Positions 20,078-47,066 of a stretch of 64,000 nucleotides of DNA are shown piece by piece. Made by a program: the position numbers and the translations under genes. The notes under the pieces were generated by a model. The model saw nothing but the letters and a program-made list of their open reading frames with translations. It searched no databases and was not told the origin of the DNA. The stretch lies in the NCBI GenBank assembly GCA_016788165.1, contig JAEUTH010000038.1:1-64000 (forward strand). Direction: 5' to 3'. The first letter of the stretch is position 1. Each line of letters starts with the position of its first letter. The stretch comes from Bacteroidia bacterium (GTDB taxonomy: Bacteria > Bacteroidota > Bacteroidia > AKYH767-A > OLB10).

Positions 20078-21502
20078 ATGGTTTTTAGCAGCAGTTTATT
20101 TTTAGTTTACTTTTTACCACTTTTTTTATTGGTGTATTACGCAGCAGCGCGGCCCTATAAAAATGGCGTGTTGCTGGTGTTTAGTGTTTTGTTTTATGCA
20201 TGGGGTGCACCCAAATTTATTTTTGTGTTGTTGGGCACTACCCTGCTCGATTTTTTTCTGGTACAATGGATGGACCGTACCACCAACCAACGATGGCGTA
20301 AAATTGCACTATGCATAAGTGTGGGCATTAATATAAGCCTGCTCTTTTATTTTAAGTACTGCAACTTTTTTATCGAAACCATAAATGATGTTTTGCATAC
20401 AGCAGGCATAGGGCCCATAAAATTGTTGCAGGTAGTAATGCCTATTGGTATATCGTTTTACACTTTCGAAACCATTACTTATGTAGTAGATGTTTACAGG
20501 CGCATACACAAGCCGCTAACTAATTTTTGGGATTACCAAACCTACATCATCCTTTTCCCGAAACTTATTGCCGGGCCCATTATTCGTTACCATGATATTG
20601 CCGATAGTATAACCAACCGCAGTGCCCAAGAAACCATTGATAATAAACTTTTGGGTTTTTATCGTTTTTGTTTGGGCCTTGGTAAAAAAGTATTGGTGGC
20701 TAATGCTGTTGGTGCTTATGCCGATGATGTGTTTGGAACAGAAATAAGCCAACAGCATAGTTTAACTGCATGGGCAGGTTTATTGTGTTATACCATGCAA
20801 ATTTATTTCGACTTTTCGGGCTATAGCGATATGGCAATTGGTTTGGGTAAAATGATGGGTTTTACCTTTCCCGAAAATTTTAATAATCCATATACATCAC
20901 AAAGTATAACTGAATTTTGGCGCAGGTGGCACATCACCTTAGGTGCGTGGATGCGAAATTACTTATACATTCCATTAGGCGGTAACCGTGTAAGTAATGG
21001 ACGGTTGTACTTTAATTTATGGCTGGTTTTTTTAGCCTCAGGGTTATGGCATGGTGCTTCATGGAACTTTGTAATTTGGGGTGCCTATCATGGTGCATTT
21101 TTAATATTAGATCGTATTTTTTTACTTGATTTTTATAAGAAAACAGGCCGGTTAATAAGTACCGCTTTAACGTTGCTTTGGGTAATGATTGGCTGGGTGT
21201 TTTTCAGATGCGAAACCTTGCCACAAGCCATTGCATTTATTAAACAATTGTTTGCCTTTAATACAAGCCATGCAGCGGCTTTGCCCGATATGTTTACTGC
21301 TGCCTGGCTGATAGTTGCTTGTGTCTTGGCTTTGTTTGTATGCATGCCATTTGGCCAGAAACTGCAAGATAACCTATATGGTAACAGTTACACAGTTACA
21401 CGTCATTTGATTGTTGCAATAATTTGTGCTTTGCTTTTTATATGGTGCCTGTCGGTTATTACGGCATCAAACTTTAATCCGTTTATTTATTTCAGATTTT
21501 AA
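20078..21502 (+). CDS. MBOAT family O-acyltransferase (AlgI-like), copy 1
   Basis: A multi-pass inner-membrane acyltransferase that transfers acyl groups, usually acetyl, across the membrane to a glycan. It has 474 residues and about 10-12 TM segments. The typical opening MVFSSSLFLVYFLPLF and the block YAWGAPKFIFV are followed by FDFSGYSDMAIGLGKMMGF (245-262), FWRRWHITLGAWMRNY (280-295) and the catalytic histidine in SGLWHGASW (His325). It starts the plus-strand operon MBOAT / SGNH / beta-sandwich protein / GT-C, with zero bases to the next gene. It faces a second MBOAT (24776-26203) in convergent orientation, and parts of the two genes are nearly identical at DNA level. Confidence 0.93.
   Translation: MVFSSSLFLVYFLPLFLLVYYAAARPYKNGVLLVFSVLFYAWGAPKFIFVLLGTTLLDFFLVQWMDRTTNQRWRKIALCISVGINISLLFYFKYCNFFIETINDVLHTAGIGPIKLLQVVMPIGISFYTFETITYVVDVYRRIHKPLTNFWDYQTYIILFPKLIAGPIIRYHDIADSITNRSAQETIDNKLLGFYRFCLGLGKKVLVANAVGAYADDVFGTEISQQHSLTAWAGLLCYTMQIYFDFSGYSDMAIGLGKMMGFTFPENFNNPYTSQSITEFWRRWHITLGAWMRNYLYIPLGGNRVSNGRLYFNLWLVFLASGLWHGASWNFVIWGAYHGAFLILDRIFLLDFYKKTGRLISTALTLLWVMIGWVFFRCETLPQAIAFIKQLFAFNTSHAAALPDMFTAAWLIVACVLALFVCMPFGQKLQDNLYGNSYTVTRHLIVAIICALLFIWCLSVITASNFNPFIYFRF
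20789..20932 (+). repeat. Inverted repeat arm 1, inside MBOAT copy 1
   Basis: These 144 bp match the inverted segment 25349-25492 in MBOAT copy 2 with only four mismatches by eye (20851, 20866, 20909, 20913). A second near-identical block covers about 21004-21053 with one mismatch in 50. Sequence between and outside these blocks is clearly diverged, which is the pattern expected of gene conversion. Confidence 0.8.
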
Positions 21503-22810
21503 ATGGAGCGCACAATTAAACAACTGATTTTTATTGCCCTGATGCTGATTTTTATTTGCATTCATGTGCAAGGCTTGTTTCATATAAAATACGAATTTCC
21601 ATTACATGGCGGAGTAGTGTATGCCGGTAAACCTACCTTAAACAAAAACAAGTGGCTGGATGGCAGCTATCAGGCCGAAGCCGAAAAATATTTTAATGAG
21701 CAATTTGGTTTTAGAAGTACCCTGGTAAGGTTGCGTAATCAAATGGACTATAGTTTGTTTAAAAAAGTAAATGCCAATGGTGCCATTATTGGCAAACAAA
21801 ACTATTTGTATGAGCACAACTACATTAAAGCATATTACGGTGCCGATGCCATAACCGATAGCTTATTGATTGATCAGGTTAAAAAATTAAAGTACATACA
21901 GGAAGCACTGCAACAAAAAGGCATTTTGTTTACGGTAATTTTTGCACCGGGCAAAGCCGCATTTTATCCGGAGTTTATACCCGATAATTTAAAACCCAAT
22001 ACCTATCACACCACCAACATCGAGCGTTACTTATATCAGTGTAAAAGCCTATCGGTAAACCACATTAATCTACACAGTTGGTTTAATTATTTAAAAAACA
22101 AATCGCCCTATCCATTGTACTCAAAATATGGCATACACTGGAGCGAATATGGCCGCAATCTGGCTGCCGACTCAATAATTAATTACGTTTCAACTAAATT
22201 ACAACAACCACTGCCCCATTTTAGTTTTGGCAAACCCTATACATCAACAGTTATGCAAGGTGTTGATAATGATATTGCCGATGGCATGAATTTGCTTTTT
22301 AAAATGCCTGAACAAACAATGGCTTATCAAACCATTTCAGTTGATAAAAAACCAAACGATGTACAACCCAAGCTACTTACAGTAGCTGATAGTTATTGGT
22401 GGCAAATGTTTAACATTCATATTTCAGAACACATTTTTAGCAATGGCAAGTTTTTATTTTACAACCGCGAGTGCCATACCGAAAACCAACCCATGCAAGA
22501 TGTTGGTATGCTAAACCTTAAGGCCGAAGTATTAAACAGCAACGTAGTTTTATTATTGGCAACCGATGCCAATTTACCTAACCTAGGTTGGGGCTTTATA
22601 AATAATTTATACAAAGACCTAACTACGTATAGCGATACCGATAAGTGGGCAAATGCCGATTATATAAATCGCGTTAACAGCATGAAAGCTTACATTAAAA
22701 CACAGGCAGATTGGTATAATGGTGTTGTAAAACAGGCACAAGAAAAAAATATCAGTGTTGACAGTATGCTAACCATTAATGCAGCATTTACTGTTGACCA
22801 ACAGAAATAG
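21503..22810 (+). CDS. AlgJ/AlgX-like SGNH acetyltransferase-associated protein, copy 1
   Basis: The protein has 435 residues with one N-terminal TM/signal anchor (about 7-28) and a periplasmic domain. It shows the AlgX/AlgJ pattern: KNKWLDGSYQAEAEKYFNEQFGFR near the start, GKQNYLYEHNYI, the block FTVIFAPGKAAFYPE, the SGNH histidine in KYGIHWSEYG, and the serine block LLTVADSYWW. In AlgJ/AlgX the histidine sits in a D-x-H-W motif; here the Asp position is Gly. The predicted role is to take the acyl group passed by the MBOAT partner and place it on an exported glycan. The ATG follows the MBOAT stop directly (TAAATG), strong evidence for co-translation. Confidence 0.8.
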   Translation: MERTIKQLIFIALMLIFICIHVQGLFHIKYEFPLHGGVVYAGKPTLNKNKWLDGSYQAEAEKYFNEQFGFRSTLVRLRNQMDYSLFKKVNANGAIIGKQNYLYEHNYIKAYYGADAITDSLLIDQVKKLKYIQEALQQKGILFTVIFAPGKAAFYPEFIPDNLKPNTYHTTNIERYLYQCKSLSVNHINLHSWFNYLKNKSPYPLYSKYGIHWSEYGRNLAADSIINYVSTKLQQPLPHFSFGKPYTSTVMQGVDNDIADGMNLLFKMPEQTMAYQTISVDKKPNDVQPKLLTVADSYWWQMFNIHISEHIFSNGKFLFYNRECHTENQPMQDVGMLNLKAEVLNSNVVLLLATDANLPNLGWGFINNLYKDLTTYSDTDKWANADYINRVNSMKAYIKTQADWYNGVVKQAQEKNISVDSMLTINAAFTVDQQK

Positions 22811-24775: not shown

Positions 24776-26203
24776 TTAAAACCTGAAATAGATAAAAGGA
24801 TTAAAGCTCGAACCTAAGATGGCTGTTGCAGAAATAAACAAAAGTATTGCCGATACGCATGTCATAAACAAATGACGTTTAACGGTGTAGTTACCAAAAA
24901 ATATACGGTGCTGCAATTTTTGTCCCTTTACCGGCAAAACAAAAAATGAAAAAATAATTGCCACTAATAAAGTGGACCAAAAGTCGAAAACCGGAAATTG
25001 TAATGGGGCATTAAAATTAAATGCATACATCTTTTTTAAAAATACTGCTGCCACGCCAAAATCTTCGATTCGAAAAACCACCCAACCCGTAAGTACAATT
25101 ACAAAAGTTATAATCATAGATGGGATGCGACCAATGTTGTTGTAAAATTTTGACAACCCTGCACGTTCTAAAACTAAAAACAAACCATGATAGCATCCCC
25201 AAAAAATAAAACTCCACGATGCGCCATGCCATAACCCTGAGGCTAAAAAAACCAGCCATAAATTAAAATACAAACGGCCTGTGCTACTTACTTTATTGCC
25301 TCCTAATGGTATGTAAAGGTAATTACGCATCCAGGCACCCAGGGTTATATGCCACCTGCGCCAAAATTCAGTTATATTTTGCGATGTATATGGATTATTA
25401 AAATTTTCGGGAAATGTAAAACCCATCATCTTACCCAAACCAATTGCCATATCGCTATAGCCCGAAAAGTCGAAATAAATTTGCATGGTATATGCCAATG
25501 CAGCCAACCATGCCGTTAATGTACTTACCGTAGCTGCATCTAAACCATAAATCTGATCGGCATACATGCCCATTGTATTTGCAATAATTACCTTTTTTGC
25601 CAAGCCTAAAACAAAACGATAGAAGCCGGTTAAAACATGGTCAATTGTAGTAGTACTTCGCCTGTCATTTATTTGATCGGCAAGTTCGTGAAACCTGATT
25701 ATAGGCCCGGCAATTAATTTGGGAAAAAGAATAATGTATAACTGATACTCCCAAAAATTTTTCAATGGCTTATGTACACGTCTGTAAACATCAACCACAT
25801 AAGTCATGGTTTCGAAAGTGTAAAACGATATACCAATGGGCAGTATCAGTTTAGTCCAATGTATTTGATTAAAGCCAATACCGGCCAACAATACATTTAC
25901 ATTTTCGATAAAAAAATTTGAATACTTAAAATAAATCAACAAGCCTAAATTAATGCAAACCGAAAACACCAATAATATTTTACGATGCCATTCGGTTTTG
26001 GTGGCATCCATTTTTTGCACCAGAAAAAAATCGAGCAGCGTGGTGCCAATTATTACAAAAATAAATTTGGGCGCACCCCATGCATAAAACAAAGCACTAC
26101 CCAATAGTATAACTACATTTTTCCATTTCTGCCGCACCAAATAATAGCATGCAAAAAACAGGGGCATAAAAGCAAAAAGAAAAATGCTGCTGCTAAAAAT
26201 CAT
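24776..26203 (-). CDS. MBOAT family O-acyltransferase (AlgI-like), copy 2
   Basis: The protein has 475 residues with the same architecture as copy 1: MIFSSSIFLFAFMPLFF, YAWGAPKFIFV, FDFSGYSDMAIGLGKMMGF, FWRRWHITLGAWMRNY and SGLWHGASW with the catalytic histidine. Middle blocks are almost identical to copy 1 in protein and DNA, whereas the N- and C-terminal segments are diverged. The gene is the last of a minus-strand run (GT-C / SGNH / MBOAT) and starts 6 bp after the SGNH stop. Having separate SGNH partners suggests that each MBOAT serves its own acceptor or position. Confidence 0.93.
   Translation of the reverse strand: MIFSSSIFLFAFMPLFFACYYLVRQKWKNVVILLGSALFYAWGAPKFIFVIIGTTLLDFFLVQKMDATKTEWHRKILLVFSVCINLGLLIYFKYSNFFIENVNVLLAGIGFNQIHWTKLILPIGISFYTFETMTYVVDVYRRVHKPLKNFWEYQLYIILFPKLIAGPIIRFHELADQINDRRSTTTIDHVLTGFYRFVLGLAKKVIIANTMGMYADQIYGLDAATVSTLTAWLAALAYTMQIYFDFSGYSDMAIGLGKMMGFTFPENFNNPYTSQNITEFWRRWHITLGAWMRNYLYIPLGGNKVSSTGRLYFNLWLVFLASGLWHGASWSFIFWGCYHGLFLVLERAGLSKFYNNIGRIPSMIITFVIVLTGWVVFRIEDFGVAAVFLKKMYAFNFNAPLQFPVFDFWSTLLVAIIFSFFVLPVKGQKLQHRIFFGNYTVKRHLFMTCVSAILLFISATAILGSSFNPFIYFRF
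25349..25492 (-). repeat. Inverted repeat arm 2, inside MBOAT copy 2
   Basis: Reverse complement partner of 20789-20932 (four mismatches in 144 bp by eye). The arms are about 4.4 kb apart in opposite orientation, so recombination between them would invert the intervening segment. Confidence 0.8.
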
Positions 26204-26209
26204 GATAGT

Positions 26210-27733
26210 TTAAAGTGGTTTGTTTGATTTAAGTTGCAACAGGCTATCCAATTGTGCCGGCAATACTTTTGATAAGGTTACATATTTTGTAAATGCCTCG
26301 ACATAAAACCTATCACTACCTAAGGCATACTTTTTATCTTTTTGTGCCAAATGCTCTGCCATAAGTTTGCTGCCGGCAATTTTATCAAACAACAGTTTGT
26401 AAGTGGTATCGGCACCTAAGTTATTAGTAAAATCAAGGTTTATCAAGTAAATGGCATCTAAGTAAGCCATACGTTCGAAACTGATATTGTTTGCAACAGC
26501 TTTGCTTGTAATCATTTGCTTACTGTTTAAATCAGATGAAATAAAAGTATACTGACTCATTACTTTACTGTCAAATTCGATAAGCATTGCGTTTATACCA
26601 TCTGTTAGATGATTATACACTTTATCGGCAAATTCGAAACCTGCTTCGCCCCAGGTAACTTCCGACATAAGTACACATACATAATCTTGCTTATACAACT
26701 CGCCCCAGTAGTTTATATCACGAAGTGCTAAAGGTTTGGTGTATGATTGCGGATATACATCACGATGATAAAACCAACATTGCGCATCCATTGCATCGTT
26801 GGTTAAATTATTGGCCATAAAAGTGAGTACAAAACTATCGCTTATAAATAAGGTTTTGGCTTTGGCTACAGGCACATTGCGATAGGCGTATTTTGGATAA
26901 TAATAGGTTTGCTTTTGCAGCGTACCAAAAACATTCATGCCGGGTAGTTGGTCCATCTCCTGCAAACTTGCCGAGTCGGATTGCACAACCGGGCCTATCA
27001 CAAAATCGCTAACAGGCTTGCCGCCTAATGAGTTTATATAATTTAAAATAGAGTCCCAGCTATGCATATAATGATAGGTACTCCAGTGTAAGCTCCCGTA
27101 AGAGTAAATAGGATATGGCGATGTTTTTTTAAGCTGTGCATATTGCTCATGAAAATCAATGAGTGGTAATTTATTTGCTACTAAATTTTTTTTCAGCCAA
27201 TAGTAATTTGTGTTTACGCTATCTGCCGGCAGATATGCCATGGGTAAATCTGCTGTGTATAAATTTGCTTTTCCCGGTGCTAAAACCACAAATAATTTTA
27301 TGCCTTTTTCGCTTAATTTATCAGCAACGTAGGCTAACTTTTTGATTCTATTGCTGATAAATTCTTTACCAACAAAATCTTTTCCTGTAGCTGCGTAAAC
27401 ATTGTTGTTATAAAAAATATTGCGGTGCTTGCCCACCATAAAATCATACTGCCCTGAGCTTTGCAAAACCCAATAATAAAAAGTGTTACGGCAACGAATT
27501 AGCCAGGGCCTGAACCCCAGATTAAAATCAAAATATGTATTTGCACCTTCGGCAAAAGTGCCATCAAGCCAGGTTGCTTTGCTTAAAACAGGTTTGGCAG
27601 GCACACTGTAAAAACCACCCAAAGGCGCCACATTAATAAACTGCAAACGTTGTTGCAATAATGGTAAAAAAAGTATGCCTGTTAAAAAAAGCATACATAC
27701 CCATTTTATTTTATGTGCAACGGTTGATTTCAT
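26210..27733 (-). CDS. AlgJ/AlgX-like SGNH acetyltransferase-associated protein, copy 2
   Basis: The protein has 507 residues from the ATG at 27733 (a TTG at 27748 is also in frame but less likely). It has a membrane anchor (about 7-27) and then LSKATWLDGTFAEGANTYFDFNLGFRPW, KLFVVLAPGKANLYT, the histidine block YSYGSLHWSTYHY and the serine block TLFISDSFVL, colinear with copy 1. The Asp of the D-x-H-W motif is replaced by Ser here. A C-terminal extension of about 90 residues beyond copy 1 (from MITSKAVANNISF) repeats a YLDAIY / LAQKDKKY pattern typical of trailing helices in this family. The operon context is identical to copy 1, with MBOAT following after 6 bp. Confidence 0.78.
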   Translation of the reverse strand: MKSTVAHKIKWVCMLFLTGILFLPLLQQRLQFINVAPLGGFYSVPAKPVLSKATWLDGTFAEGANTYFDFNLGFRPWLIRCRNTFYYWVLQSSGQYDFMVGKHRNIFYNNNVYAATGKDFVGKEFISNRIKKLAYVADKLSEKGIKLFVVLAPGKANLYTADLPMAYLPADSVNTNYYWLKKNLVANKLPLIDFHEQYAQLKKTSPYPIYSYGSLHWSTYHYMHSWDSILNYINSLGGKPVSDFVIGPVVQSDSASLQEMDQLPGMNVFGTLQKQTYYYPKYAYRNVPVAKAKTLFISDSFVLTFMANNLTNDAMDAQCWFYHRDVYPQSYTKPLALRDINYWGELYKQDYVCVLMSEVTWGEAGFEFADKVYNHLTDGINAMLIEFDSKVMSQYTFISSDLNSKQMITSKAVANNISFERMAYLDAIYLINLDFTNNLGADTTYKLLFDKIAGSKLMAEHLAQKDKKYALGSDRFYVEAFTKYVTLSKVLPAQLDSLLQLKSNKPL

Positions 27734-27771
27734 TTTTACAAAGTGCAATAATTAAAAATTAGAAGCACAAA

Positions 27772-33127: not shown

Positions 33128-34240
33128 ATGAAACGGATATTGATTGTGGTGGGTACACGACCCAACTTTATTAAAGTAACGCAGTTTAAAAAAGCCAATG
33201 CTGCTTTAGGTAATCCATTCCATATTGCTATTGTACATACCGGCCAGCATTATGACAGTAAAATGGCTGATGTTTTTTTTACGCAATTTGATTTGGTGCC
33301 CGATTATTTTTTAAATATATCACATGCAAGTGCCAATACGCAAATGGCCGAAATTATGTTGCGGATTGAGCAAACCATTTTGGAGTATAAACCTAGCGTG
33401 GTTATGGTTGTGGGCGATGTAAATTCAACTTTTGCGGCTGCGCTAACTGCTAATAAATGTAATGTAAAAATAGCACATGTTGAAAGCGGTTTGCGCAGTA
33501 ACGACCGTACCATGCCCGAGGAGTTTAACCGCATACTAACCGATGCCATTACCGATTATTTTTTTGTAACCGAAGAAAGCGGCCGCCAACATTTATTAGC
33601 CGAAGGTAAGCTGGATAAGGCCATTCATTTTGTGGGCAATACCATGATAGATACACTTGTGGCTTTTAAACAAAAAATTAATGAAGACAACATTTTAGAT
33701 GTCTTAAAAATTACGGACGGAAGTTATGCATTGATGACAATGCACCGGCCTGCAACTGTTGATTTTAAAGAAGGGCTCGAAAAATTATTAGCGGTTATCA
33801 ATTGCATTATTAAAAAACACAACCTTGTTTTTCCGATTCACCCACGCACGTTGCAAAAAATTAAGGATTTTGGTTTGCAACCTGTTTTTGACCAATTACA
33901 ACAAACACAGCCTTTTAAACTTATTATAACGGAGCCACTGCCCTATTTTGCATTTCAACGCTTAACGTCACAATGCTTGTTTGTAATAACAGATAGCGGT
34001 GGCATACAAGAAGAAACCACATTTATGCAAGTGCCTTGCTTTACGTTACGCGCCAACACCGAAAGGCCTGTAACCGTTACAATTGGCAGCAATGAACTTA
34101 TTCCGTTTGATACGAATACAATAGCAAAAAAAATTGCCGAGATAGAAAACGGCCAAGCAAAAAAAGGTACAGTGCCACCACTATGGGATGGCCAAGCAAG
34201 TTATCGTATATTACAGGTGTTACAAAAACAACTGAACTAA
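33128..34240 (+). CDS. wecB: UDP-N-acetylglucosamine 2-epimerase (non-hydrolysing)
   Basis: Converts UDP-GlcNAc to UDP-ManNAc, the precursor of ManNAc-containing envelope glycans. The 370 residues are the usual length. The start IVVGTRPNFIKV, HTGQHYDSKM, GDVNSTFAAAL (catalytic Asp), HVESGLRS (Glu), PEEFNR (Glu), TMHRP (His) and the late block TDSGGIQEET are all present in order. The usual RxxTERPE stretch reads LRANTERPVTV. It precedes a GT4 gene by 33 bp, suggesting that both serve one surface glycan. A UDP-ManNAc dehydrogenase is not seen in the window. Confidence 0.93.
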   Translation: MKRILIVVGTRPNFIKVTQFKKANAALGNPFHIAIVHTGQHYDSKMADVFFTQFDLVPDYFLNISHASANTQMAEIMLRIEQTILEYKPSVVMVVGDVNSTFAAALTANKCNVKIAHVESGLRSNDRTMPEEFNRILTDAITDYFFVTEESGRQHLLAEGKLDKAIHFVGNTMIDTLVAFKQKINEDNILDVLKITDGSYALMTMHRPATVDFKEGLEKLLAVINCIIKKHNLVFPIHPRTLQKIKDFGLQPVFDQLQQTQPFKLIITEPLPYFAFQRLTSQCLFVITDSGGIQEETTFMQVPCFTLRANTERPVTVTIGSNELIPFDTNTIAKKIAEIENGQAKKGTVPPLWDGQASYRILQVLQKQLN

Positions 34241-34273: not shown

Positions 34274-36382
34274 ATGCATATTCTCATCATTCCATCGTGG
34301 TATAAGTCGGCTGACGAACCCATGTTGGGTAGTTTTTTTGAAGAGCAGGCACGGGCATTGATTAAACTCGGACATCAGGCCGGCATCCTTTATCCCGATT
34401 ATCATCCGCCATCGGCATTGTTTAGTCGCATGACTAAATTACCCCCCTATGTAAACGACAACGGACTGCACACTTATGCATTAAACGTGCGCACATTTTT
34501 ACCCAAAATGCGCATGGCAAATTACACTGTGCACGGTATGGCCGCAAACAAATTGTTTAAAAAATACGTAGCAAAGCATGGTATGCCCGATGTGTTGCAT
34601 GCACACTCATGCAATCATGCAGGTATTGCTGCTGCTTATATATCTAAAAAACATAACCTGCCACTTGTTATCACCGAGCATTTAACCACCTTGGTTAGTC
34701 ATAGTATTGTACATGATACCGATTTTAAAATTACACGTAATCTTTTTAAAAACGCTGACAAGTCGCTTGCTGTCAGCCAAGTGTTTAAAGACAACTTAGT
34801 AAGTGCTTTGCATTTGCATCCACATTATTTTGATGTATTGCACAACATGGTTAACGACTTGTTTTTTGATAATATACAAATCAAAAAATATAACGCTAAC
34901 GAACCCTTTATTTTATTTACCAATTCGTTTTTACATCAGCGTAAAAACCACAAACTACTTTTCAATGCACTTAAAATATTAGTAAGCCGCGGCATAAACG
35001 TACACTTACATGTTGGTGGCTATGGAAGCGAAGAACAAACGCTTAAAAATTATGTAAACCAATTACAATTACAAAACAACATTCATTTTACAGGCATGTT
35101 GCAACGGCATGAGGTAAAGCAACAAATTGATGCATGCCATGCTTTTGTATTAGCCAGCAATTATGAAACTTTTGGTGTGGTACTTATTGAAGCTTTGGCG
35201 GGAGGACGGCCTGTAATTACTACCGACAGCAAAGGCCCGCGCGATATTGTAACAAGCCATAACGGTTTGCTACTTACTGATTATACGCCCGAAACTTTTG
35301 CTGCTGCTATAGCACAACTCATGCAAAATTATAACCGGTACAACCAGCAGGAAATTTCGAAACAATGTCATCAACAATTTTCGCAACAAACCATTGCCGG
35401 TAAATTAACCGGCATCTATCAAACAGCTATTAATAAACGGATACATTTTAAAACGCAACCCGAATTAAAAAACCTGTTGCTAACATTCGACTTTAAGCCT
35501 GCTTTAAACAGTGCAGCAACTGATATTGCAAACACATTTAATACAACTATTCAAAAACTTTTGCCTTTATTAAACAAGCATCAAATTAATGCCATGTTTT
35601 TTATTGATGTAGTTTATTTGCTTCATTTAAAAAAGTTGCAAACAACCGATGCTAATGCGACACTGGAACACATAACATCATTGCTTCAAAAACTTACAGC
35701 TAATGGTAATAGCGTTTTACCATTATATAATTACAATTGGCAGCATGTAAGTTTTGACCGTGATAAAAACATTGCTAACAATAACATTGACAGCCAATAT
35801 TTAAACGATGGCATTTCACTTTTGAAAGATTTGTTGCCTGCTTGCAAAATTGATGGTATTAGGTTTACAAACGCTGCCTTGTTTATGCAACCTGACATAA
35901 AAGAAATTTTGTTGGCGCATGATATTAAAAACAACTTTAGTGTGGTTGATGATTTAAAATCAAACACAAAAGTTGAACCCGTTGCAATGCCTGAAAAATT
36001 TATTTACCGGTTCGAAACTGATTTTTATGTTGATTGTTTTAATGGAAGGTTTACACAGTTTAATGCCACACTGCAACCAATATCAACACCAAAAAATATC
36101 ACACATAAATTAGAACAACGTTTCTCTTTTTCAGGCTTATCGCAAACCAACAACCAGATAAATGTTTTTAACGGCAATAAAATTTTATCGGTAAACAAAC
36201 TTAACCCAATAAATTTGGATTTGTTTAAAATGCACCTGGCACAAAATTACTTTCAGTATTTTATATCAGACTTGGTGCAAATTTCCGACACATCCTGGCA
36301 CTGTTTCGACAGCTACTTGCAGCATGCAATTACTACCTATGCAATTGAATCAAATTACATAAATATGCTACAATATTATTAA
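34274..36382 (+). CDS. GT4 glycosyltransferase fused to a degenerate polysaccharide-deacetylase-like domain
   Basis: The protein has 702 residues. The first 385 or so are a GT-B glycosyltransferase family 4: the N-terminal PSWYxSxxxPxxGxFFxEQA block (8-27), HAHSCNHAG (109-117), and the E-x7-E pair in NYETFGVVLIEALAGG (Glu298, Glu306). Residues about 392-700 are a separate domain that follows the order of NodB/WalW-type deacetylases: LLLTFDFKP (401-409, in place of TFDDGP), KHQINAMFFID (435-445), NGNSVLPLYNYNWQH (478-491, where the metal-binding H-x3-H should be) and IDGIRFTNAALFM plus LLAHDIKNNFSVVDD (in place of FRAGN ... GIKYDSS). The metal His pair is absent, so deacetylase activity is unlikely. 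Possible role: glycan binding or allosteric control of the GT. Confidence 0.8.
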   Translation: MHILIIPSWYKSADEPMLGSFFEEQARALIKLGHQAGILYPDYHPPSALFSRMTKLPPYVNDNGLHTYALNVRTFLPKMRMANYTVHGMAANKLFKKYVAKHGMPDVLHAHSCNHAGIAAAYISKKHNLPLVITEHLTTLVSHSIVHDTDFKITRNLFKNADKSLAVSQVFKDNLVSALHLHPHYFDVLHNMVNDLFFDNIQIKKYNANEPFILFTNSFLHQRKNHKLLFNALKILVSRGINVHLHVGGYGSEEQTLKNYVNQLQLQNNIHFTGMLQRHEVKQQIDACHAFVLASNYETFGVVLIEALAGGRPVITTDSKGPRDIVTSHNGLLLTDYTPETFAAAIAQLMQNYNRYNQQEISKQCHQQFSQQTIAGKLTGIYQTAINKRIHFKTQPELKNLLLTFDFKPALNSAATDIANTFNTTIQKLLPLLNKHQINAMFFIDVVYLLHLKKLQTTDANATLEHITSLLQKLTANGNSVLPLYNYNWQHVSFDRDKNIANNNIDSQYLNDGISLLKDLLPACKIDGIRFTNAALFMQPDIKEILLAHDIKNNFSVVDDLKSNTKVEPVAMPEKFIYRFETDFYVDCFNGRFTQFNATLQPISTPKNITHKLEQRFSFSGLSQTNNQINVFNGNKILSVNKLNPINLDLFKMHLAQNYFQYFISDLVQISDTSWHCFDSYLQHAITTYAIESNYINMLQYY

Positions 36383-45501: not shown

Positions 45502-47043
45502 TTAATGTGCTTTAAACATTTTGAGCATGTTTATTTCGCTTTCGGTAAGCATGCGATAACGTTTGCGGGGCAAATCGCGTTTGGTTAGTCCGGCATAATA
45601 AGTACGGTCGAGCTTAATTACCATATATCCCAAATGTTCAAAAATTCTACGCACTATGCGGTTGCGGCCACTATGTAAGGTAACACCTACTACACGTTTG
45701 CTATCAGCACCTTGGTCATAAGCAATTTCGTCAACTTTCATAAAGCCATCTTCCAACTCAAGGCCGTCAGCAATTTGTTGCATGTCGGCCGGCTTTAAGT
45801 TTTTATTCAGTTCCACCATATACGTTTTTTTAATGCGCGATGATGGGTGCATTATTTTATCAGCTAATGGTCCGTCATTGGTAAAAAGTAATAATCCAGT
45901 GGTGTTTCTATCTAAGCGCCCAACCGGATAAATTCGCTCTTTGCAAGCGCCTTTAATTAACTCCATTACAGTTTTACGCTCGCGTGGGTCGTCAGTAGTG
46001 GTAATATAATCTTTGGGTTTATTTAAAATTAAATAAACCATTTTTTCGTTGCGTAATGTTTCGCCATTATACTTAACCACATCGCCCGGCATAACGCGTG
46101 TGCCCAATTGTGTTATTATTTCACCATTTATACTAACCAGACCGGCAGTAATTAATTCGTCAGCTTCTCTGCGCGATCCCTTGCCCGAATCGGCTATGTA
46201 TTTATTAAGCCTGATACCATCGGTACGTTGGTTGGGCTCATTTCGTTTCTGGCTTTTTTTACTGTTTGGATTTCGGCCATAACTTTTGCCTTGCACTCCG
46301 GGAATATATTTCTTATCCCTATCATCAAATTTTCTGTTGTCTTTGCTATAGGTTGGCTTATCATCAAAACTACGCACGCCTCTTTTATAGGATGGCTTAT
46401 CGCCATAGCTGCGCTCGTTGTTACCGTCTGACTTACGTTTGCTAAATGACGGCTTATCATCAAAACTACGCTCGCCTCTTTTATAGGATGGCTTATCGCC
46501 ATAGCTGCGCTCGTTGTTACCGTCTGACTTACGTTTGCTAAATAACGGCTTATCATCAAAACTACGCTCGCCTCTTTTATAAGATGGCTTATCGCCATAG
46601 CTGCGCTCGTTGTTACCGTCTGACTTACGTTTGCTAAATAACGGCTTATCATCAAAACTACGCTCGCCTCTTTTATAGGATGGCTTATCGCCATAGCTGC
46701 GCTCGTTGTTACCGTCTGACTTACGTTTGCTAAATGACGGCTTATCATCAAAACTACGCTCGCCTCTTTTATAAGATGGCTTATCGCCATAGCTGCGCTC
46801 GTTGTTACCGTCTGACTTACGTTTGCTAAATGACGGCTTATCATCAAAACTACGCTCACCTCTTTTATAAGATGGCTTATCGCCATAGCTGCGCTCGTTG
46901 GCATCATCACCCTGTTTGGTGAAATTTGTTTTTTTATACGACCTGCTGCTGCCAGCTTTTTCGGGCTTATTGGTTGTACGGTTATGTGATGCCGTGTCGT
47001 TATCTGACTTACGGTTGCTGATGATGCGTTTGCGCATTGCCAT
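45502..47043 (-). CDS. RluB/RsuA-type pseudouridine synthase with repeat-rich N-terminal extension
   Basis: Makes pseudouridine in rRNA. 513 residues from the ATG at 47043. The first 250 residues are low-complexity, rich in K/R/S/D/G, and include about six copies of a 32-residue unit (R-S-Y-G-D-K-P-S-Y-K-R-G-E-R-S-F-D-D-K-P). Then comes an S4 RNA-binding domain (IRLNKYIADSGKGSRREADELITAGLVSINGE) and the synthase domain with catalytic Asp in YPVGRLDRNTTGLLLFTNDG, then HSGRNRIVRRIFEHLGY. Long basic, disordered extensions are known on Bacteroidota members of this family, but the perfect tandem repeats here are notable. The -7 box at 47059-47066 fixes the start at 47043. Confidence 0.93.
   Translation of the reverse strand: MAMRKRIISNRKSDNDTASHNRTTNKPEKAGSSRSYKKTNFTKQGDDANERSYGDKPSYKRGERSFDDKPSFSKRKSDGNNERSYGDKPSYKRGERSFDDKPSFSKRKSDGNNERSYGDKPSYKRGERSFDDKPLFSKRKSDGNNERSYGDKPSYKRGERSFDDKPLFSKRKSDGNNERSYGDKPSYKRGERSFDDKPSFSKRKSDGNNERSYGDKPSYKRGVRSFDDKPTYSKDNRKFDDRDKKYIPGVQGKSYGRNPNSKKSQKRNEPNQRTDGIRLNKYIADSGKGSRREADELITAGLVSINGEIITQLGTRVMPGDVVKYNGETLRNEKMVYLILNKPKDYITTTDDPRERKTVMELIKGACKERIYPVGRLDRNTTGLLLFTNDGPLADKIMHPSSRIKKTYMVELNKNLKPADMQQIADGLELEDGFMKVDEIAYDQGADSKRVVGVTLHSGRNRIVRRIFEHLGYMVIKLDRTYYAGLTKRDLPRKRYRMLTESEINMLKMFKAH
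46345..46899 (-). repeat. 96-bp tandem repeat array in the pseudouridine synthase gene
   Basis: Five near-identical 96-bp units plus one partial, diverged unit encode the 32-residue repeat. Differences between units are single bases (for example KPSFSK versus KPLFSK; GGA versus GAT-side changes at GATGGCTTATC positions). The unit length is a multiple of three, so copy-number change keeps the frame open. Confidence 0.92.
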
Positions 47044-47058
47044 GGTAATAATTTTGCG

Positions 47059-47066
47059 CAAAGATA
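47059..47066 (-). promoter_or_regulatory. -7 box for the pseudouridine synthase gene
   Basis: Coding-strand TATCTTTG matches TAnnTTTG exactly and is followed by C. It is 15 bp upstream of the ATG, so the transcript would have a leader of about 9 nt or be nearly leaderless. No -33 match was found. Confidence 0.45.

Follow-up and report, generated by a model that had tools for sequence, protein, structure and literature searches.

A glycosyltransferase fused to a deacetylase-like domain that has lost its catalytic histidines in a Bacteroidia genome

Pseudoenzymes with the CE4 deacetylase fold are known (PMC10967932). The deacetylase-like proteins BA0330 and BA0331 are reported to be inactive on common substrates, yet the cell needs them, and they interact with peptidoglycan (PMC4505593). 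Altered sites may also stay active, as BoPDA of Bacteroides ovatus works with a changed (His-Asp) metal site (PMC11713874). Cohesion of the Caulobacter holdfast is affected by the deacetylase HfsH as well as by the GNAT-type HfsK, and it has been proposed, though only proposed, that HfsK acylates the amines exposed by HfsH (PMC5362036).

Here we analyzed a stretch of 64,000 nucleotides (the window) from the draft genome of a Bacteroidia bacterium. A sequence-only reading had described a GT4 glycosyltransferase fused to a deacetylase-like domain lacking its metal site. The ORF, Pfam matches, homology, predicted fold and residue comparison all agree with this description.

Layout of the fusion gene and its glycosyltransferase half

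An uninterrupted ORF of 702 aa with an ATG start occupies positions 34274-36382 on the forward strand. Residues 1-386 form the GT4 half, which is followed without a gap by the deacetylase-like domain (residues 387-702), here called PDA*. The main features are:

33128..34240, forward strand: wecB, UDP-N-acetylglucosamine 2-epimerase (PF02350, E 4e-92), member of orthologous cluster c1 of the relatives' operon
34274..35431, forward strand: GT4 glycosyltransferase half, residues 1-386, intact
35165..35191, forward strand: EX7E motif of the GT4 half, ETFGVVLIE, E298-E306
35384..35455, forward strand: last helix of the GT4 half in the full-length AlphaFold2 model, residues 371-394, the fusion point
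35432..36379, forward strand: PDA* (residues 387-702), domain of predicted NodB/CE4 fold with its active site lost, derived from a once separate deacetylase gene

The GT4 half matches PF00534 (E 3e-35, 121.6 bits against a cut-off of 26.4) and PF13439 (E 3e-17, 63.4 bits against a cut-off of 28.5). It has the Glycos_transf_1/Glyco_transf_4 domains and a GT-B fold near MshA and BshA (Foldseek E 6.5e-22 to MshA). It is 44-50% identical to its orthologues in 11 family genomes, and the E298-E306 pair is common to all 11.

In the full-length AlphaFold2 model, the last GT4 helix (371-394) ends about three residues before the first barrel strand (398-407), leaving a very short linker between the halves. 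Because the helix runs almost directly into this strand, the model suggests that the two halves are likely near each other; the pTM of 0.69 makes their relative orientation uncertain.

Homology, predicted fold and active-site residues of PDA*

PDA* matches the Pfam deacetylase profile PF01522 at E 0.006, under the gathering score, and the same profile matches just 31 of 48 members even at E <= 1. Because PF01522 is weak or absent in many intact relatives too, other evidence was needed to call the domain a deacetylase. A PF13369 (Transglut_core2) match to PDA*, with E 0.0004 over ~31 residues, was dismissed as chance, being absent from every intact relative. No usable relative came from searching PDB sequences with either PDA* or a profile of intact relatives.

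Searching 100 related genomes with PDA* gave matches in 28 at E <= 0.01, one of which (G097) was false. The homologues in family genomes (E 4.6e-18 to 1e-10) are deacetylase-like proteins of ~350 aa that carry the motifs TFDYE, HxHPHW, RAGGW(C/S)IQPF and SHPK. A profile (A1) built from 13 of these proteins recovers the window domain in turn (G000:C38:35468-36133, E 1.9e-21). PDA* is 21-28% identical to family members and homologous to them along the whole domain.

The AlphaFold2 model of PDA* is a NodB/CE4 barrel with a mean pLDDT of 85.2 and a pTM of 0.85, computed from a 48-sequence alignment of intact relatives, which favours adopting their fold. The top PDB matches of this model in Foldseek were polysaccharide deacetylases and ArnD (E 2e-7 to a polysaccharide deacetylase). 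VIA-align 2 aligned 228 residues with 3QBU at Z 17.6; Z was 17.3 to 1Z7A, 16.8 to 3RXZ and 12.2 to WbmS 3HFT, and the matches included the CE4 pseudoenzymes 7BKF and 4M1B, plus 2VYO. We take the deacetylase family of PDA* to be WalW/WbmS-like, a label whose sole support is the fold match to 3HFT. The predicted structure thus puts PDA* in the NodB/CE4 superfamily as a deformed (beta/alpha) barrel, not in an unrelated fold, in line with the sequence-only reading. That reading had set the domain at residues 392-700; the region is indeed deacetylase-like, and the barrel covers roughly residues 396-702. Among the structural residues retained are F442-F443-D445, Y578, F580 and G591.

The four motifs of the family can be located in PDA*:

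35483..35497, forward strand: motif 1, TFDFK, residues 404-408 (TFDYE in relatives); Asp406 retained, Glu lost
35723..35740, forward strand: motif 2, LYNYNW, residues 484-489 (H-x-H-P-H-W in relatives); three His lost, Trp retained
35861..35890, forward strand: motif 3, RFTNAALFMQ, residues 530-539 (RAGGWCIQPF in relatives); only Arg530 retained in the alignment
36266..36277, forward strand: last motif, SDLV, residues 665-668 (S-H-P-K in relatives); His lost

Compared residue by residue, every candidate metal or catalytic His is missing from PDA*. The His residues are replaced by L484, N486, N488 and D666, and the AGGW loop has become FTNA; T404, F405, D406, W489 and R530 are retained. In relatives motif 1 has two acids, either of which may bind the metal in this branch; PDA* keeps one (D406, the first acid of TFD, as had been noted from the sequence) and exchanges the other (Glu to Lys408). 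The metal pair had been described as an H-x3-H replaced by YNYNW: the loss is real, and the family motif is H-x-H-P-H-W. The end motif had been misread as GI/DI-K-x-x-x-S-x-x-D; the family has I-S-H-P-K and the window I-S-D-L-V. The His of S-H-P-K is presumed to be the general acid in relatives. With both the metal-binding His of motif 2 and the His of the last motif replaced, PDA* would fall outside the active CE4 enzymes.

In the full-length AlphaFold2 model, residue 406 lies in strand 398-407, residues 486-488 follow strand 480-485, residue 530 lies in strand 528-531 and residue 666 ends strand 660-666. The lost residues are thereby at or just beyond strand ends, which, judged from predicted secondary structure and not from coordinates, would be the active-site region of such barrels.

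The loss extends beyond the motifs. Taking the 53 columns that 93% or more of the intact homologues share, PDA* retains 20, and sampled intact homologues retain 43-47 of 47-48. The motif His are retained by the full-length sequences among 80 GTDB r220 relatives, which were fetched by motif-containing patterns, so that their intactness is partly built in. Motif-unbiased searches were made with the protein or the whole profile, and covered the relatives, the family, the class (395 genomes) and the order. In the whole-profile searches of the family, class and order, PDA* was the lowest-scoring homologue, contig-edge fragments aside. The homologues inspected, including the lowest-scoring class loci, were intact except for one HPQW in place of HPHW, and for the class survey this refers to the subset of loci inspected.

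From these comparisons, we infer that PDA* is a pseudoenzyme domain that would have kept its fold and lost its catalysis. The earlier view of a catalytically dead domain tied to a GT4 enzyme is consistent with the homology, the predicted fold and the residues. The domain probably serves a non-catalytic use, docking or structural. Of the two roles suggested in the earlier reading, binding of the growing glycan is possible, and control of chain length is purely speculative.

The operon of relatives and its parts in the window genome

GT4 and deacetylase are separate adjacent genes in eight family genomes (G002, G003, G008, G009, G011, G014, G016 and G019). The GT4 orthologue is directly upstream of the deacetylase in all eight, with stop/start overlaps of 1-4 nt in several. 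The exopolysaccharide operon of relatives is ordered Wzc/Wzz, ABC transporter, GH127/cyclase-like protein, WecB, FemAB, GT4 and deacetylase, and often continues with an epimerase, additional GT4s and Wzy.

Other fusions were seen in relatives. A FemAB-type transferase is fused in frame to the GT4 orthologue in two genomes, giving 738 aa (L065 5079-7295 in G011 and L066 4760-6976 in G003). An intact deacetylase carries a C-terminal GT2 domain at L079 6618-8699, and four further intact deacetylases (L091, L092, L099 and L134) have a C-terminal domain of ~345 aa, the same length as this GT2. The operon appears to fuse genes readily, because FemAB-GT4 fusions occur in two relatives and the deacetylase is fused to GT2 or to a domain of the same length in at least four. 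Of the 80 GTDB r220 relatives, which are more distant, ten carry 424-452 residues as an N-terminal half in front of an intact deacetylase. Eight of these ten halves were tested, and all match the GT4 acceptor domain, with three of them exceeding the cut-off. These distant fusions are probably independent, because they share only 18-21% overall identity with the window protein.

FemAB-type proteins are acyl or aminoacyl transferases. The FemAB of relatives is similar to the XrtA/PEP-CTERM FemAB family, matching TIGR03019 at E 7e-11 without reaching the cut-off. In relatives, the deacetylase probably strips an N-acetyl group, and FemAB would then re-acylate the amine. By analogy with the holdfast enzymes, the two are probably a tailoring pair.

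In the window, wecB lies directly upstream of the fusion on the same strand, with a gap of 33 bp, and so retains its ancestral neighbourhood with GT4. WecB and the fusion are all that the window holds of the ancestral operon. The rest is on contig C8 (L165, G000:C8:5000-24999), where Wzc with the ABC transporter and an epimerase-GT4-Wzy-GT4 block lie on opposite strands, about 8 kb apart and away from wecB and the fusion.

FemAB was not found in the whole window genome with the same query that finds it in 20 of 24 family genomes, and no FemAB remnants were found in the window, on contig C8 or in the loci of G006. A profile search of the window genome found no second deacetylase of the family of PDA*. 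The deacetylase profile has a match in all 24 family genomes, although what it matches in G001 and G015 is solely a second type that is more distant. Of the 21 family genomes with an intact or contig-edge main-type deacetylase, 20 have FemAB; the three without such a deacetylase (the window genome, G001 and G015) all lack it. The hypergeometric probability of this co-occurrence, calculated by hand, is about 0.002 for genomes that are not independent and with G006 as an exception. G006 has a ~400-bp gap between wecB and an intact deacetylase (L078 8246-8655), at the expected position of FemAB. This genome, without FemAB yet with an intact deacetylase, weakens the notion that losing FemAB entails losing the deacetylase.

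Other features of the window were recorded as well. Putative MBOAT O-acyltransferase genes, each with an adjacent gene for an AlgJ/SGNH-like-looking protein, form two pairs at 20078-22810 (forward strand) and 24776-27748 (reverse strand), flanking other genes. Pfam confirmed MBOAT for 20078-21502, and MBOAT genes also adjoin WecB in some relatives (L079, L080). A 96-bp unit is repeated 5.7 times at 98% identity at 46355-46900 (reverse strand) within ORF 45502-47061, where it encodes a repetitive charged N-terminal extension; the product is presumably an S4/pseudouridine synthase.

Constraint, competing explanations and known systems

The GT4 and deacetylase trees were made from one set of 12 genomes. 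In the GT4 tree, the tip of the window protein measures 0.50 substitutions/site, within the range of the other tips; in the deacetylase tree it measures 2.81, and no other tip there exceeds 0.82. The branch lengths correspond to a rate about 5.6 times higher in the deacetylase half than in the GT4 half. Compared across the same 11 genomes, the deacetylase half retains 21 of 67 invariant columns, versus 98 of 106 for the GT4 half. Its GC1 is 0.38, versus 0.49 in the GT4 half, and its Asn content is 11%, a composition consistent with relaxed constraint. A neutral simulation at 59% ancestor identity predicted about 8 stops and gave no stop-free sequence in 400 runs, and PDA* carries no stop; the simulation presumes zero constraint over the whole divergence, and constraint may have ended recently. 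The absence of stops therefore indicates that, during a large part of the divergence, PDA* was being translated under constraint that was loose at the least. No close copy of the window domain was found in the first GTDB r220 scan made with it, and the degenerate fusion is known from a single genome in searches of the family, class and order.

The explanation that we prefer, at slightly better than an even chance, is that adjacent GT4 and deacetylase genes fused, that the catalytic residues were lost and that the GT4 enzyme retained the barrel in a non-catalytic capacity. In the proposed order of events, the GT4 gene would have fused with the adjoining downstream WalW/WbmS-like CE4 deacetylase gene of the exopolysaccharide operon, and the deacetylase part would then have lost its metal and catalytic residues. 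Because FemAB is gone too, the deacetylation/re-acylation tailoring step was probably abandoned. The barrel would have been kept under weak but real constraint as an extension of GT4. Most likely it would pack against the GT4 half, hold the nascent lipid-linked glycan in its former substrate groove, or do both. A narrower version, in which the fused deacetylase became an acceptor-binding or allosteric module of the GT4 enzyme and the organism gave up deacetylation/re-acylation, is one we offer tentatively and consider rather doubtful. A structural or glycan-docking role is most likely, and its serious rival is that PDA* is a passenger, just tolerated at the C-terminus since it folds or does not aggregate, without a role in glycan synthesis and due to be lost. 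The long branch, the few invariant columns retained, the Asn-rich and AT-shifted composition and the single genome would all fit such a relic. However, the frame is free of stops and frameshifts despite extensive divergence, the fold is predicted confidently and the structural residues listed above persist; we regard the relic as possible, with the chances against it.

It is improbable that PDA* is instead a changed enzyme, with a non-canonical metal site or another reaction that might use Asp406, Asn486/Asn488, His491 and Asp666. Asp406 and Arg530 are retained, Asp666 stands in place of an invariant His and His491 in place of an Asp that most relatives share, so that Asp406, Arg530, His491 and Asp666 might in principle form an unusual site. 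There is also precedent in the His-Asp metal dyad of BoPDA (PMC11713874) and in PuuE allantoinase, which has the same fold and is not metal-dependent (PMC10967932). However, PDA* has lost the AGGW loop, the motif 1 Glu and every conserved His of motif 2 and the last motif. BoPDA still has a metal His together with the general-acid His, and inactivity is reported for CE4 enzymes in which the general-acid His is missing (PMC11713874). An artefact of assembly or gene calling, with the fusion or the degenerate stretch not real, might be suspected in a draft genome of 46 contigs. We consider it highly implausible, as the frame is single and open, the halves are ordered like the neighbouring genes of relatives, the contig is 157 kb long, the genome is 99.8% complete and dispersed substitutions clustering at motif positions are not an error pattern.

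The non-catalytic extension that we prefer would be a clean natural case of an enzyme becoming a non-catalytic domain, with separate neighbour genes, intact fused cousins and the degenerate fusion all visible across related genomes. It highlights a surface-polysaccharide module of Bacteroidota (WecB, FemAB-type transferase, GT4 and deacetylase) in which fusions of the parts recur, and suggests that FemAB and the deacetylase act as a tailoring pair that can disappear together.

The direct relatives of PDA* are the stand-alone WalW/WbmS-like CE4 deacetylases of Bacteroidota surface-polysaccharide loci (e.g. L084, L082). They share its predicted barrel and the operon partners WecB and GT4, but they are separate genes with intact TFDYE, HxHPHW, RAGGW and HPK motifs, whereas PDA* is part of a fusion and no longer has these motifs. 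The intact GT4-deacetylase fusions (L111, L114, L115, L119, L125, L127, L128, L131, L137 and L141) have the same order, a GT4-like half and then the same deacetylase family. They differ in their distance from the window protein (18-21% identity) and in their intact deacetylase motifs, and look like bifunctional enzymes. Ba0150 (4M1B), BA3943 (7BKF) and EcCDA (2VYO) resemble PDA* in having a NodB/CE4 fold with metal or catalytic residues lost, but belong to other CE4 branches (Bacillus or microsporidian), and the literature consulted describes no glycosyltransferase fusion for them. BA0330 and BA0331 are a precedent for a binding role of an inactive deacetylase-like protein (PMC4505593). Unlike PDA*, they keep the Asp-His-His site and are lipoproteins without a glycosyltransferase fusion. 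The pairing of a deacetylase and an acyltransferase in HfsH and HfsK resembles the FemAB-deacetylase module proposed for the relatives; HfsH is needed for a cohesive holdfast (PMC5362036), and in the window genome both steps appear lost. The literature searched contained no case of a GT4 enzyme combined with a dead deacetylase. The fusion is thus known in kind, from CE4 pseudoenzymes and from glycosyltransferase-deacetylase fusions, and is new as a combination.
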